From: a virus
Length of the DNA stretch: 36,988 bases
IMG/VR virus record: IMGVR_UViG_3300031673_000222
Span: 1-36,988 of that record
Strand: one strand, 5' to 3'
The notes beneath the pieces are model-generated. The model was not told the origin of the DNA and searched no databases. It saw only the letters and a list, made by a program, of their open reading frames with translations. The translations under genes and the position numbers were made by a program. The number at the start of each line of letters is the position of its first letter. The stretch's first letter is position 1. Shown here piece after piece: positions 3,993 to 36,988 of the stretch.

Positions 3993-6584
3993 ATGGCAAG
4001 AAATTTCAAGAACTTTTTTGGACTACTTGGAGAGAAAGCAGATCCAAAAACTTCTGTAGTTACAGCATTCGAGGAAACTCGTGAGGGACAGCCAAAAGCA
4101 TACATTCCTAATTTTTTCTATAAGCCACCTTTTGGATATCCAAGATACAAAGATTTACTTTATTACAGGAAGCTTGCAGCTTCTATTTACGTGGATATGT
4201 GTGAGACAGCTATTATCGACGAGGTGTGTTCTATTGAATGGGACATAGTTGCAGAAGATAAATCTGGAAATGAAGTACCAGGGAAAGAAAAAGAAGTTGA
4301 AATTGTACAAAGTTTTTTTGAGAATCCAAATACAAACCCTGAAAGTTGGGAGTCAGTTGTTAGAATGATGTTGCCTGATTTGCTGGAACTTAATTCTGGG
4401 ATAATGGTCAAGGTTTTTAATTCATTTGGAAAGATGGTCGAGATTGTTGCAAGAGATGGAAGTGCTTTTACAAAGAATCCAGATGTATATGGAATGTATA
4501 CAAACCGGGCAGACTTAATTCTTATGAAGGATATTTATGATGCTGATGAGGAATCACCATATCGAGCAGAGACTGGTTATCCTTTGTTGCAAGGATATAT
4601 AACATCTGATCAAGCAAGAGGAGAAGGAGCTTATTTTCAATATGGATTTAATACAGGAGCACGGCCAGTGCCTTTTGGAAAAAGAGAAATAGTTTGGTTT
4701 GAAAAGAAATTAAGAACAGACGATTTATATGGAAGAAGTGCAATGGAAGTTCTTGCAAAGACTGTCCAGACTTTAATTTATGCAGTAGAGCACAACCTTG
4801 AATATTTTTCTGATAATTCTATTCCTCCAGGAGTGTTAGGCCTTGATGGAATGAGCACAGCAGACATAAAAGCATTTGCACAACAATGGACAGAGTCACA
4901 AAGGAAATCAGATGATCTTGGAAATTGGAAGAAGGTATTCCACAAGCTGGCCATGGTCAACAAGATGCCAAAGTTCGAGAGACTGGGTTTTACAAATGCA
5001 GAATTGGAGTTAATAGAATCTCAAAAGTGGTGGTCAAAGATGGTTTGGGCTGCTTTTGGAATGACTGCAACAGAACTTGGATTTGTAGAAGATGCAAAAG
5101 GATCCGCAAATCAGATAGTCCAGAGTTCGATTGCAAAGAAAAGAATAATTTATCCTTTGTTAAAAATAATTTCTTATTATGTAAATACACAAATCATTCC
5201 TGAGTTTGGATTCGAAGGGATCAAATACAAATATAAAATATTTGATGTCGACGATGAAACAAAGAAATGGGGATTATACAAACTTCAAACAGAGTCTGCT
5301 CTTAAAACAATTAATGAAGTGAGAAATACAGAAGGGTTGGATCCTGTGGATTGGGGAGAGGAACCTCCAAACAAATGGAGTCCAAATCAGGGAAATAATT
5401 TTAATCTGAATGATCCACGTCAGCAAGAGTCTGATAGGATAAACAGAGAGAATCAGGATGAGAGAAATTGTCAGTTGAACAAACCAAAGAAAGGACAAAA
5501 ACCAATTGTTAATATTGAAAATGAAGAAAAGTCATTGAAAGGTCTTGAGACAAAACCATTTGCAGGGTATGCAAACTTTGATGCATGCGTTAGAGCAAAT
5601 CAGGACAAGGGAAATCCAGAGGCTTATTGCGCTACAATCCAGAGACAGGTGGAAGGCAAGGCATTGGGAACTCAGGGAGATCTAACTTTGCAGCCAGGAG
5701 AAGAAATGGATTACAGGAAACTGAAGAAAGTAATTATTGATTTATTAAAAGATAATGAGAAGAAGATTATAGAGATTTTAGAAACACAGAAAGCAGATGA
5801 TCAGTTAATAAAAATAAAAGGTATAGATGATATTCCAGGAATGATTAAGAAAATATTTGCTCTTTTTACATTCAAGGAAATAAGTGATAAAATAATCAAG
5901 ACTCAATTTTTTAGTGGATGGGAAAATTCCGAAAAACAAATAGATAGGAATGTTCAAATGAATAATAGAGCCTTAGATTTTTTACAGGAGCATACTTTTG
6001 ATAACATTAAGGGAATGACCGAAGAGATAGCTAATGATCTAAAAGCAGAATTAGAAAGAGGAATTATTAACGGGGAAGGGATAACAAAATTGAAAGAGAG
6101 AGTAAGTAATGTTTTTAATGTTGGAGAAAATCGTGCAGAGATGATTGCACGTACAGAAACAAACCGGGCAGAAAATAATGGGAAGTTATTGGCCATAAAA
6201 GGATCAGGTTTAGAATATAATAAAAAATGGATTACTCATAAGGATGATAGAACTTCACCAATTTGTAGAAGACTAGATGGTCAAATAGCTGAATTAGATG
6301 AGAATTTTAAAGATTCTGTTTCAGGATGGGAAGGGCAATCTCCTCCTAGTCATGTAAATTGTAGATCTACAATTGTTTTTATTGATAAGGAAGAGGTCCA
6401 ACAAAAAGTTATTGAAAAGCAAGAATTAGAATTAAAAGAAAAAAAAGAAAAAGAAGATAAATTAATTGATGAAGAAATTAAAATAAAGTTGGATAAAAAA
6501 GAAGCTGAAATTAAAGAAGAAAAATTAAGTTTATTAAAAAGATTAGGAGAGAATGCAGATGGAAGAAATCCAAATCTTTCTTGA
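3993..6584 (+). CDS. Portal protein fused to MuF-like minor head protein
   Basis: At 863 aa this is far longer than a single portal (about 400-550 aa). The N-terminal about 480 residues look like a phage portal (dodecameric DNA gate at one capsid vertex). A linker with a Cys-containing motif (ACVRANQDKGNPEAYCATI, about 530-550) follows. Residues about 710-790 match the MuF minor head domain (IARTETNRAENN, KDDRTSPICRRLDGQ, SPPSHVNCRSTI). The last about 70 residues are a Lys/Glu coiled coil. MuF proteins are injected or internal head components, and portal-MuF fusions are known in other tailed viruses. The gene follows terL and has its own TATA box. Confidence 0.88.
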   Translation: MARNFKNFFGLLGEKADPKTSVVTAFEETREGQPKAYIPNFFYKPPFGYPRYKDLLYYRKLAASIYVDMCETAIIDEVCSIEWDIVAEDKSGNEVPGKEKEVEIVQSFFENPNTNPESWESVVRMMLPDLLELNSGIMVKVFNSFGKMVEIVARDGSAFTKNPDVYGMYTNRADLILMKDIYDADEESPYRAETGYPLLQGYITSDQARGEGAYFQYGFNTGARPVPFGKREIVWFEKKLRTDDLYGRSAMEVLAKTVQTLIYAVEHNLEYFSDNSIPPGVLGLDGMSTADIKAFAQQWTESQRKSDDLGNWKKVFHKLAMVNKMPKFERLGFTNAELELIESQKWWSKMVWAAFGMTATELGFVEDAKGSANQIVQSSIAKKRIIYPLLKIISYYVNTQIIPEFGFEGIKYKYKIFDVDDETKKWGLYKLQTESALKTINEVRNTEGLDPVDWGEEPPNKWSPNQGNNFNLNDPRQQESDRINRENQDERNCQLNKPKKGQKPIVNIENEEKSLKGLETKPFAGYANFDACVRANQDKGNPEAYCATIQRQVEGKALGTQGDLTLQPGEEMDYRKLKKVIIDLLKDNEKKIIEILETQKADDQLIKIKGIDDIPGMIKKIFALFTFKEISDKIIKTQFFSGWENSEKQIDRNVQMNNRALDFLQEHTFDNIKGMTEEIANDLKAELERGIINGEGITKLKERVSNVFNVGENRAEMIARTETNRAENNGKLLAIKGSGLEYNKKWITHKDDRTSPICRRLDGQIAELDENFKDSVSGWEGQSPPSHVNCRSTIVFIDKEEVQQKVIEKQELELKEKKEKEDKLIDEEIKIKLDKKEAEIKEEKLSLLKRLGENADGRNPNLS

Positions 6585-13785: not shown

Positions 13786-14166
13786 ATGACAAGAATAACA
13801 AAGTATTCAATAACTGCAACAATAGCAGCTGGTGAAACAACTGCTACAGCTTATAGTTCAGAGGTTATAAGAGGAAAAATCCTTGCAGTTGGAGTTAACT
13901 ATCCAACAAATACTTGTACAGTAGATCTTGATTCAGACGGCGAAGCTTCTGCGCAAAAGATTTTAGATCTTGCAGCAGCAAATACAGATACAACTATTTA
14001 TCCAAGAGTGGACGTCTGTGATAATACTGGTGGAGCAAGTCCGGTATATGGCACAGGGTTTGTAATTGTTACAGAATTTGTAGTGTTTGGAAGAATTAAG
14101 TTATCATTAGCGTCTGGAACTGCAGGAGAAAGCGTTACTGTAGATGTAATAGTAGAGGAAAATTAA
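13786..14166 (+). CDS. Putative capsid decoration-type protein
   Basis: 126 aa preceded by an AAGGAGA ribosome site. The sequence (start MTRITKYSITATIAAGETTATAYSS, written here in part) is a beta-sandwich type common in unnamed phage structural proteins. Typical features are GKILAVGVNY, a DLDSDG turn and a TDTTIYPR segment near residue 72. These are usually encoded next to head genes and look like outer-shell or spike components. It is isolated from its upstream neighbour by the hairpin/U-tract spacer, which implies separate dosage control. Confidence 0.6.
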   Translation: MTRITKYSITATIAAGETTATAYSSEVIRGKILAVGVNYPTNTCTVDLDSDGEASAQKILDLAAANTDTTIYPRVDVCDNTGGASPVYGTGFVIVTEFVVFGRIKLSLASGTAGESVTVDVIVEEN

Positions 14167-14559
14167 ATGAAGTTCATCAATCATGGTGAATCAATTAAAA
14201 TTCGAGTAGGAAAATTAAAAAATTTCTATTGGATCACTGTAAGAAAAAACGAGATAGTTGAATTGCCTCAGAGTATTGGAAAGAACCATGGACTCGAAGA
14301 GTTGAAAACAACTGAGGGTCAGATTGGAGATAAAAAAGTTGAGACAAAACAAATTGAGGTACCCGAAAAAATAAATATTTCGGGGTCCGATAATTCTTTT
14401 TATAATGAATTAATAAAAATTAAAGGTATTGCTTTGAAAACAGCAGAAGATATTATTGAAGTTTTTACAAAAGAAGAATTAATTAAATCTATTATCAACA
14501 AAGAAAAATTACCTTTTAGAAATGATGTTGAATTAAAGTTGAGGAAGAAATATGGTTAA
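14167..14559 (+). CDS. Small protein with helix-hairpin-helix-like C-terminus
   Basis: 130 aa, ATG directly after the previous stop. The N-terminal about 45 residues form a small beta domain (KIRVGKLKNFYWITVRKNEIVELP) seen in short phage head-region proteins. The C-terminal about 55 residues (FYNELIKIKGIALKTAEDIIEVFTK) look like a helix-hairpin-helix with the KIKGI...A turn, a nonspecific DNA-binding fold. It could contact packaged DNA or help assembly. It overlaps the next gene by 8 nt. Confidence 0.55.
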   Translation: MKFINHGESIKIRVGKLKNFYWITVRKNEIVELPQSIGKNHGLEELKTTEGQIGDKKVETKQIEVPEKINISGSDNSFYNELIKIKGIALKTAEDIIEVFTKEELIKSIINKEKLPFRNDVELKLRKKYG

Positions 14560-30939: not shown

Positions 30940-31539
30940 ATGGTAGAAAAAACAAACAGTCAAGTGTGGCTTGCAGCAGCATTAATTTCAGTAGTTGTAA
31001 TAGCTTGTTTTCTTGTAGCAGGGGGAAACAAAGTAAGTACAGATGATGTGAAAAATATTGTAGTAGCAGAAATGGCTAAGTTGAATGTTCCAACAGCGCA
31101 AGAAATTGCAGATTTAGTTGTTATTCCTGAAATTGAATTTCCAGAATATGATTTTAGTGGAGATTATGTCTTAACAAAAGCTGACTACGAAAAAATCTTA
31201 CAAGAAGATAAGGCTGAAATCTTAGTTTTGGAAGAAATTGATTCAAGAGATTTCAAGAAAGCTTTATTTGCTGCTTTAGTTGATTATAATGAATCTATTG
31301 AAAGTTACAAACATATCACAGAAATTGTAGTTAAAGATATAGAAATTGTTATAGATGATGAAGAAGCAACTATTACAGTAGATTTGAAAGTTTATTACTA
31401 TGTGGATGGTGATGAAGATGAAGACTTCAAAGCAAGATTCAAAGAGATTACATTTGATGTAACTAAATTAGTAGTAGAAGATAACTTTGAAGATGCTGAA
31501 GTAGACTTTGGAAATTTAGTAATAAATAAAGTTTACTAA
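30940..31539 (+). CDS. Membrane-anchored acidic protein, probably highly expressed
   Basis: 199 aa. One N-terminal membrane segment (about 9-28, VWLAAALISVVVIACFLVAGG in part), followed by a strongly acidic exported region. It contains VVIPEIEFPEYDF near residue 60 and repeated acidic beta-strands (IEIVIDDEEATITVDLKVYYY) in the second half. Few sequons and no Cys after the anchor. It has its own promoter, a leader hairpin, a GGAGG site and a U-tract plus hairpin end, which suggest strong solo expression. It could be an envelope or surface-exclusion protein. No family recognised. Confidence 0.7.
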   Translation: MVEKTNSQVWLAAALISVVVIACFLVAGGNKVSTDDVKNIVVAEMAKLNVPTAQEIADLVVIPEIEFPEYDFSGDYVLTKADYEKILQEDKAEILVLEEIDSRDFKKALFAALVDYNESIESYKHITEIVVKDIEIVIDDEEATITVDLKVYYYVDGDEDEDFKARFKEITFDVTKLVVEDNFEDAEVDFGNLVINKVY

Positions 31540-31540
31540 T

Positions 31541-31596
31541 TCAATCAATTTTTTATTTTTTTTATTTTTTGTTTTATTTAGGTGCGCGGGCGCACT
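31541..31596 (+). terminator. U-tract followed by GTGCG/CGCAC hairpin
   Basis: A long T-rich run directly after the stop of the acidic protein, then GTGCG (31582-31586) pairing with CGCAC (31591-31595) around CGGG. Archaeal termination usually needs only the U-tract. Confidence 0.6.
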
Positions 31597-31768
31597 TTAT
31601 TTTGGGCTAACTAATAGTCCAATTACTTATTTTAAACGCAGTGTGAGGCTCCTGTGAGGCACTTTTTTCTTAGTTTATCGTCGGAAAAGTACTATTGTTC
31701 TAATTAGTACAATTGTTACAATTTGTTACATTCCAAAAGAATTAAATACATTAAATGTGTAACTATAG

Positions 31769-31821
31769 AGTGGGGTTCAACTAAATCTTAACAGATTTGA
31801 TTGTGTTCATGCCCCCACACT
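31769..31821 (+). other. GTGGGG...CCCCAC stem element (copy 1)
   Basis: AGTGGGG and CCCCACACT bracket an inner AAATCT/AGATTT hairpin (31783-31798). The same outer arms occur at 36901-36961. Followed by ACTTTTCTAGAAAGT and T6. Confidence 0.5.
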
Positions 31822-31832
31822 TTTCTAGAAAG

Positions 31833-31864
31833 TTTTTTAAAGCATATTTTGCTGGTATAATTCC
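31833..31864 (+). promoter_or_regulatory. Regulated promoter P1: TATA plus operator-like palindrome
   Basis: TTTTTTAAA (31833-31841) is followed after 4-5 nt by ATTTTGC-TG-GTATAAT (31846-31861). The right arm matches P2 and P3 exactly and the left arm matches at five of seven positions. A start about 26 nt from the TATA centre falls near 31864, at the 5' end of the ncRNA. Confidence 0.65.
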
Positions 31865-32095
31865 ATGAACATAATCAAAGAACAAAATTTGGTCGGTCCG
31901 TACAACCAAATAGAATATGTCTCAATAGAGCTCGAGGGATTAAAAACCAAGTGAAAAGCTAAGGCACGACTTGAGGGGTTGAGAAGTTTGGGTAGATCGT
32001 TAGTAGACTCAACAGGGGAAACTTCGGTGTCGAACCTAAATTTAAAATTGGGAGTGGAAAGCTTTTAGTGTTTTTTATATTATCCTAAAAGTTAA
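31865..32095 (+). ncRNA. Structured non-coding RNA behind P1
   Basis: Stems visible in order: ATTTGGT (31887-31893) with ACCAAAT (31905-31911); CTCGAG (31931-31936) with CTTGAG (31970-31975); GTTGAG (31978-31983) with CTCAAC (32008-32013); TTCG-GTGT-CGAA (32023-32034); and AGCTTTTAG with CTAAAAGTT (32060-32093), with U-rich loop. G/C is higher than in flanking DNA. A frame from ATG 31865 ends at TGA 31952 after 29 codons and stays open to TAG 32066, so a short peptide cannot be excluded. The stems favour RNA. No known family recognised. Confidence 0.6.
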
Positions 32096-32161
32096 GTTTG
32101 AACCAATAATCAGTTAGAAATCCGTTCAAGGAAGAAAATAGTAAGAAATAAAAAAAATATA

Positions 32162-32392
32162 ATGAAAACAATTAAAAAAATATCAAAGAGGGCAGAGGAT
32201 TTAAGTCCAGAAGAATCAGAAAGAATCAGGAGAGATCTTACAAAGAATGCAAAGGAAGTGAAAACCCAGATGACTTTAAAAGAGATCAGTAAATTGAAAA
32301 AGCAAGGGATTGTATTTGGACCAAGAGGGGTTGTAATTGAAGGGGAAAACAAGATCAAACTTGGAGAAGGAATTGGATATAGATACAAATAG
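32162..32392 (+). CDS. Hypothetical 76-aa basic protein
   Basis: First gene of the early module. Lys/Arg-rich N-terminal half (KKISKRAEDLSPEESERIRR), then a helix (MTLKEISKLKKQG) and a short beta end (IVFGPRGVVIEGENKIKLG). No zinc or membrane motif. Possibly nucleic-acid binding. No Shine-Dalgarno is visible, so the start is less sure. Confidence 0.5.
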   Translation: MKTIKKISKRAEDLSPEESERIRRDLTKNAKEVKTQMTLKEISKLKKQGIVFGPRGVVIEGENKIKLGEGIGYRYK

Positions 32393-32396
32393 TAAA

Positions 32397-32404
32397 TTTT
32401 AAAT
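32397..32404 (+). promoter_or_regulatory. TATA box, leaderless start for the gene at 32427
   Basis: TTTTAAAT centred about 26 nt before ATG 32427, which lacks a Shine-Dalgarno. Confidence 0.5.
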
Positions 32405-32426
32405 AAGTTTGTTGGTTGGTTAGATC

Positions 32427-32660
32427 ATGAAAGAAAAAGAAAAAATAGTAAGAAAGACACTCGATTTACTAATGGAAAATGTAGAAAATTTTGAAGATTT
32501 ATTAAATTTAAAATTTACAATACAGGATTATTTAGATGAAGGATATAAAGTATTTGATTATGATATAAAATATAAAAGGTTAGTTATAGATTTCTATGAG
32601 AAAAAGAGGGTTGAAGAAATAAAAAAAAGAGAAAAATTAATGATTTCTGGAAAAAATTAA
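32427..32660 (+). CDS. Hypothetical 77-aa protein
   Basis: Helical and charged throughout (LDLLMENVENFEDLL; DYDIKYKRLVIDFYEKKR). No domain recognised. Ends before the regulated promoter P2 and is its own transcription unit with a TATA at leaderless distance. Function unknown. Confidence 0.55.
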   Translation: MKEKEKIVRKTLDLLMENVENFEDLLNLKFTIQDYLDEGYKVFDYDIKYKRLVIDFYEKKRVEEIKKREKLMISGKN

Positions 32661-32726: not shown

Positions 32727-32755
32727 TTTATAAAGCAGATTATACTGGTATAATT
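32727..32755 (+). promoter_or_regulatory. Regulated promoter P2: TATA plus perfect palindromic operator
   Basis: TTTATAAA (32727-32734), then the perfect inverted repeat ATTATAC-TG-GTATAAT (32739-32754), then TAGGAGGATT as ribosome site. Same order as P3 at 34190. A protein bound here would cover the region between TATA and start site and block polymerase. Confidence 0.75.
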
Positions 32756-34189: not shown

Positions 34190-34219
34190 TTTTTTAAGGG
34201 GGATTATACTGGTATAATT
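34190..34219 (+). promoter_or_regulatory. Regulated promoter P3: TATA plus perfect palindromic operator
   Basis: TTTTTTAA (34190-34197), then ATTATAC-TG-GTATAAT (34203-34218), then GGGAGGATT. The 16-nt palindrome is identical to that of P2, and the spacing TATA-to-operator (5-6 nt) is conserved. Confidence 0.75.
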
Positions 34220-36963: not shown

Positions 36964-36988
36964 GCAGGAGTAGTCTAATGGTAAAATC
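36964..36988 (+). tRNA. 5' part of a tRNA, probably tRNA-Gly (truncated by window end)
   Basis: GCAGGAG followed by TAGTCTAATGGTAAAATC shows a 7-nt acceptor arm strand, the T8 and the D-arm with AATGGTAAAA loop typical of Gly tRNAs (for example chloroplast and archaeal ones). The anticodon is beyond the window, so identity is inferred from the D-arm only. Confidence 0.55.

Follow-up and report, generated by a model that had tools for sequence, protein, structure and literature searches.

We read the longest gene-free gap of a tailed virus, with reasonable confidence, as a two-RNA antisense module at the boundary between the late and early genes of a virus of DPANN archaea (tiny symbiotic archaea). 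The window analysed is positions 1 to 36,988 (36,988 nt) of IMG/VR record IMGVR_UViG_3300031673_000222, and all positions are those of the window. Two promoters, a hairpin, a complementarity between the two predicted RNAs and its retention in diverged relatives are supported by the sequence, and from these we infer that both RNAs are made and pair, the direction of control and the silencing step. A hairpin RNA (RNA-A) would be made constitutively from a strong operator-free promoter (P_A), and a second RNA (RNA-B) from a repressor-controlled early promoter (P_B) just downstream of it. The RNA-A loop would pair with the first ~15 nt of RNA-B and silence it, by blocking the 5' AUG, by provoking cleavage or by stopping transcription at T6 before the early gene at 32162. 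Two restraints would then act on early expression, a protein operator and an antisense RNA.

The virus and its late/early boundary

Among the genes of the window are those for a terminase, a portal/Mu-F protein and an SU10-like capsid. Two other IMG/VR contigs from the same sample are identical to the window and run past both of its ends; their far ends overlap, which points to a circular or permuted genome some 41 kb long. Many viral contigs carry relatives of the capsid, as do MAG contigs with the labels Nanoarchaeota, Woesearchaeota, 'archaeon' and, in one case, WOR-3 bacterium. In the relatives, the wHTH genes lack leaders, and TTTAAATA mostly stands 29–30 nt (33 in two) upstream of the ATG; this predicted arrangement of leaderless wHTH genes and TATA is the archaeal pattern. 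A tailed virus of DPANN archaea is the best explanation of the source. A bacterial sigma-70 reading of TGGTATAATT was rejected, as leaderless wHTH genes would then have transcript starts within their ATG; the capsid relatives, found mostly in archaeal MAGs (one labelled WOR-3), also speak against it. To our knowledge, how viruses of DPANN archaea control their genes is essentially unstudied, as cultures are lacking. The right end of the window cuts a tRNA gene (36964-36988; L054:11696-11765), called by ARAGORN as Thr with anticodon AGT, which is unusual for archaea; structured-looking noncoding sequence flanks it on both sides (GTGGGG..GCCCCAC before, GCACAAAG..CTTTGTGC after).

The gap spans 31540-32161 (622 nt). 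Its features, and those of the genes on either side, are:

30940..31539, + strand: last late gene, on the late side of the boundary; 199 aa, acidic, with an N-terminal membrane segment
31549..31570, + strand: T-rich tract, probable late terminator (T6, T8 and T6 at 31549, 31556 and 31565)
31736..31749, + strand: promoter P_A of the hairpin RNA, BRE plus TATA (AAAGA-ATTAAATAC; TATA at 31741; PWM 11.8)
31770..31822, + strand: RNA-A, predicted ~50-nt hairpin sRNA (fold z -2.4, p 0.026)
31796..31811, + strand: antisense arm TTTGATTGTGTTCATG, the loop/3' segment of RNA-A; 16 pairs (1 GU) with 31864-31879
31827..31841, + strand: promoter P_B, BRE AGAAAG plus TATA TTTTTTAAA
31846..31862, + strand: operator ATTTTGCTGGTATAATT, a copy of ATTATACTGGTATAATT with a degenerate left half
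31864..31879, + strand: 5' end of RNA-B, predicted target of RNA-A; contains the start AUG
31865..32076, + strand: RNA-B, the reported transcript (~210 nt), predicted to start at ~31865 and end at T6 (32071-32076)
31865..31954, + strand: possible leaderless 29-codon ORF (MNIIKEQNLVGPYNQIEYVSIELEGLKTK, TGA), its ATG exactly at the predicted start
32051..32060, + strand: GGAGTGGAAA, sole copy in the window
32162..32392, + strand: first early gene, with neither a good promoter nor a good SD belonging to it
32398..32405, + strand: TATA of the leaderless ORF 32427-32660 (PWM 8.0; predicted start 32427 is the ATG)
32739..32755, + strand: operator copy of early promoter 2 (promoter at 32727)
34203..34219, + strand: operator copy of early promoter 3 (promoter at 34190)

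L058/G001, G048 and G017 each have a homologue of the late gene in this position, and a T-rich tract also lies 3' of the homologous late gene in G048, G046 and G017. Two copies of GGAGTGGAAA are present in relative L058/G001, both in the equivalent gap. Upstream of the module, an imperfect 18-nt tandem repeat (AGTACTATTGTTCTAATT/AGTACAATTGTTACAATT) occupies 31688-31723 and possibly represents binding sites or origin iterons.

Promoters, operator and the two predicted RNAs

P_A is the best-scoring promoter in the gap; none scores higher within 400 nt, and 0.18% of the surrounding 8 kb equals it. It has no operator, whereas P_B has one. The RNA-A stem joins GTGGGG (31770-31775) to CCCCAC (31813-31818) around an inner stem (31783-31788 with 31793-31798), and a short T4 stands at its 3' end (31821-31824). 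The 16-nt inverted repeat formed by the arm and its target brackets P_B, and the arm/target duplex has an energy of -32 kcal/mol (p 0.002 against shuffles). Neither the hairpin gene (31741-31822) nor this inverted repeat appeared in the first-pass annotation, which had reported 31865-32095 as a candidate regulatory noncoding RNA with its own regulated promoter.

Several elements of that report were borne out. The stretch is richer in G/C than its surroundings (0.40 against a mean of 0.33, in the top 7% of 200-nt windows). P_B has the archaeal arrangement of a BRE/TATA ~25-30 nt before the start, and its TAGAAA-TTTTAAAA design recurs in G048, G060, G046 and G021. The TATA-to-start spacing of the relatives' leaderless wHTH genes (mostly 29–30 nt) places the RNA-B start at 31863-31865, in agreement with the proposed start of 31865. 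The operator said to be held in common with two protein promoters, ATTATACTGGTATAATT, occurs exactly at 32739 and 34203 and with 2 mismatches at 31846; a fourth copy (1 mismatch), outside the window at L054:13784, precedes a leaderless wHTH gene. The operator is thus a palindrome common to P_B, the promoters at 32727 and 34190 and the wHTH gene promoter and, because it lies in the wHTH gene's own promoter, the wHTH protein is likely the repressor of the operator-bearing promoters. That gene (L054:13803-13994) is the first of a small wHTH pair (the second at 13988-14293) conserved through the virus group; in Pfam the pair has weak TFIIE-beta/MarR-like similarity only. The promoter design, and the occurrence at the same position in several relatives, give good sequence support to the proposed discrete early transcript under repressor control at this boundary. 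Since the early gene at 32162 is without a good promoter of its own, RNA-B may be its leader as well, and read-through of RNA-B into it is possible.

The five stems claimed for the stretch did not hold up. The minimum free energy of 31865-32095 is no better than that of dinucleotide shuffles (z -0.61; 53 of 200 shuffles as good), so internal structure does not count as evidence for the RNA; a folding scan of the stretch found nothing beyond chance, and the relatives' RNAs also gave z near 0. With 4227 Rfam families, no match in the window exceeded the gathering score, and even with E allowed up to 10 nothing credible appeared in the region or at the units of G017, G046 and G048. Sequence homologues of RNA-B were absent from viral contigs other than those of the same virus and from 50 virus/MAG records, and 371 genomes of the host phylum gave short chance-level matches only; G048 alone has weak nucleotide similarity to RNA-B (p 0.0015-0.008). 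A type III toxin-antitoxin was ruled out, tandem repeats being absent, and GTTAGTAGA..GGGG, first spotted by eye as a motif common with G017, was not significant. The regulatory role that had been proposed gains nothing from internal stems; its support comes from the complementarity to the neighbouring hairpin RNA.

Predicted pairing of the hairpin and early RNAs across relatives

An archaeal promoter, with ~150-330 nt between it and the next early gene, is found in G048, G047, G060, G021, G046, G017 and G037; G018 has the same layout, but in the early region. This virus and G048 have the same gene downstream of the unit (37% for the homologue of 32162..32392, directly 3' of the G048 unit), and the RNAs of G017 and G046 are homologous to each other (nhmmer 9e-15). 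The full tandem design stands at the same genome position in up to five relatives (G047, G048, G046, G037 and G017), with unrelated arms. Hairpin and T-run lie directly upstream of the early promoter in all six viruses, with both units on the same strand in each, and the hairpins fold better than shuffles in 6/6 (z -1.9 to -4.0).

It is unlikely, though conceivable, that the hairpin is a mere terminator of the late transcript, with the antisense segment carried in late mRNA so that late transcription shuts the early RNA off by pairing. The constant place of hairpin and T-run before the early promoter suits this reading. Against it, a terminator-like T-rich tract already lies ~200 nt upstream, after the late gene, and a TATA stands at the right distance (28-31 nt) upstream of the hairpin in 5/6 viruses.

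The longest pairing runs between each virus's own loop and target are 16, 14, 17, 13, 11 and 8, against at most 10 off the diagonal, and the true assignment is the best of 720 loop/target assignments. In four viruses the run exceeds those of all 72 mismatched pairs (maximum 12); control runs for the same comparison reached 11 in shifted windows and 9 at wHTH promoters. Duplex energies are better than those of shuffles in all six (p 0.001-0.043), and in the homologous pair G017/G046 the target and loop have changed together, as read from the sequences. In cofolding, the duplex is clearly favoured in this virus and G047 and by only 1-4 kcal/mol in the others. The tests agree for this virus, G047 and G048, largely agree for G046 and G037 (the latter without a good TATA upstream of the hairpin) and are weaker for G017, with its pairing of only 8 nt. 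The downstream unit is present without strong pairing in G060, G021 and G018, and L058/G001 has neither unit nor pairing; the design is known from six viruses.

Chance complementarity in an AT-rich gap was also weighed, the pattern having first been seen by eye, with controls made afterwards and partly on the same six viruses. A more independent test was a scan for the whole design (1.9 Mb of loci, then both strands) with resampled controls: it found only 4 places, in this virus, G047, G048 and G046, all at the late/early boundary, against 0, 0 and 1 in three resampled data sets. Together with the run-length and permutation controls, this makes chance very improbable. Almost as hard to sustain is an action of the inverted repeat as DNA, as a replication origin or a looping or binding site around the promoter. 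The long AT-rich gap with the direct repeats at 31688-31723 would fit such an element, as would G058, where, in a repeat-rich gap of the early region (G058:28797-28900), a perfect inverted repeat of 20 nt (ACTACACAGATTATATAAGA) surrounds a TATA-like site. The arms, however, differ in every virus, where a site-specific protein would conserve them, and their placement follows the predicted start and a hairpin loop that has a TATA of its own.

That the arms drift while their complementarity is kept points to a built-in antisense switch. The chance is about even that this constitutive hairpin sRNA, paired in tandem with a repressor-controlled early RNA and drifting with pairing kept, is an archaeal viral RNA switch not previously described. 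Because the loop/target pairs are matched yet virus-specific, they suggest RNA-based exclusion between related viruses: each virus would hold a private lock and key, which could decide the compatibility of co-infecting relatives.

Coding potential, known antisense systems and neighbouring elements

Codon usage and the relatives make RNA-B probably noncoding in this virus. The codon usage of the 29-codon ORF is like that of only about 0.1-2% of real gene windows; it is noncoding-like here, in G047 and in G060 (≤0.2% of real windows) and low in G048; higher scores are reached by other short genes of these viruses. A lesser, still appreciable possibility is that RNA-B serves as a leaderless mRNA, coding for a small early protein that evolves fast, of 29 aa or in a TGA-broken 67-codon frame, the RNA itself being functionless. 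An ATG lies at TATA+29/30 in this virus, G048, G047, G060, G021 and G018. In both G018 and G021, a unit built in this way codes for a conserved leaderless protein of 49/55 aa (BLASTP 6e-06), its homologous ORFs spanning the unit up to the T-run; here, too, the frame reopens after the TGA and runs on to a TAG (32066-32068), 2 nt before T6. The frame is conserved only between G018 and G021, however; the G048 similarity does not preserve it, the G046 equivalent (homologous to that of G017) has no ORF of at least 35 codons, and 118 nt of GC-richer sequence lie 3' of the 29-codon ORF. Recoding of the TGA is unsupported, as TGA terminates other genes of this virus. The proposal of a noncoding RNA therefore stands here on codon usage and on G046, with the ATG at the predicted start and the G018/G021 protein against it; a conserved peptide frame, named in the first-pass annotation as the contrary pattern, was found in those two other viruses and not in this one.

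In type I toxin-antitoxin systems, a regulated transcript with a small ORF lies next to a small antisense RNA that is complementary to the 5' region of the transcript. On the leaderless-mRNA reading it may be tentatively supposed that RNA-A, if made, blocks the AUG of RNA-B in this manner. The layout is alike, a small-ORF transcript adjoining a small antisense RNA, but the 29-aa product is not hydrophobic, its codon usage is noncoding-like and the target ORF is only putative.

Among antisense RNAs of the P4 CI type is C4 RNA of phages P1 and P7. The module predicted here from sequence resembles P4 CI and P1 C4 in having a short same-strand RNA complementary to an early RNA. CI RNA of the satellite phage P4 is a short same-strand antisense RNA with partial complementarity to the nearby early leader; that leader is noncoding and precedes the early genes, and transcripts of the P4 replication genes are terminated prematurely (PMC4825925). 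CI is processed from its target transcript, whereas RNA-A lies upstream of its target and apparently has its own TATA (5/6 viruses); moreover, the present virus is archaeal, there is no sequence relation, and the effect of RNA-A is a predicted one. The halovirus phiH1, an archaeal tailed virus, uses antisense RNA in gene control, according to Stolt and Zillig (1993) as cited in PMC6210493; what that account describes is an opposite-strand counter-transcript, in contrast to the same-strand, tandem arrangement through an inverted repeat found here. In HFTV1, also an archaeal tailed virus, late antisense RNAs are proposed to turn early genes down (PMC12542753), but the antisense transcripts start mostly kilobases from the sense start and are unlike a hairpin sRNA. 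With the present module, a same-strand hairpin antisense switch would join the few antisense controls known in archaeal viruses. In a recognisable virus group it provides a regulatory system that is concrete and open to test, comprising a predicted autoregulated wHTH repressor, shared operator and antisense RNA.

Other elements were observed in the relatives. In many, the first early gene past the boundary unit resembles by eye a ribbon-helix-helix DNA-binding protein (G018:25756, G021:33557, G047:13821, G060:37322, G056:3835 and G001:40210); Pfam gave no ribbon-helix-helix match for the three of these searched. At the 3' ends of the G021, G047 and G060 boundary units and of the G001 gap, a GGAGG-like motif precedes a start codon and immediate stop (AUGUAA, GUGUAA, GUGUAG and AUGUAG). 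In G018 (4652-5146, capsid on +; also L100:7753), the same TAGAAACTTTTAAAAAG promoter precedes a 479-nt noncoding stretch of GC 0.50 between portal and protease, which holds an apparent intron-bearing tRNA (weak Rfam tRNA match, E 0.3) and further unexplained sequence beside it. A conserved leaderless gene for a lysine-rich peptide of 34-35 aa with a single membrane segment (..WLWFWIVMFWPVAIFYYF..) is found at G021:29224, G048:28805 and G046:8104.
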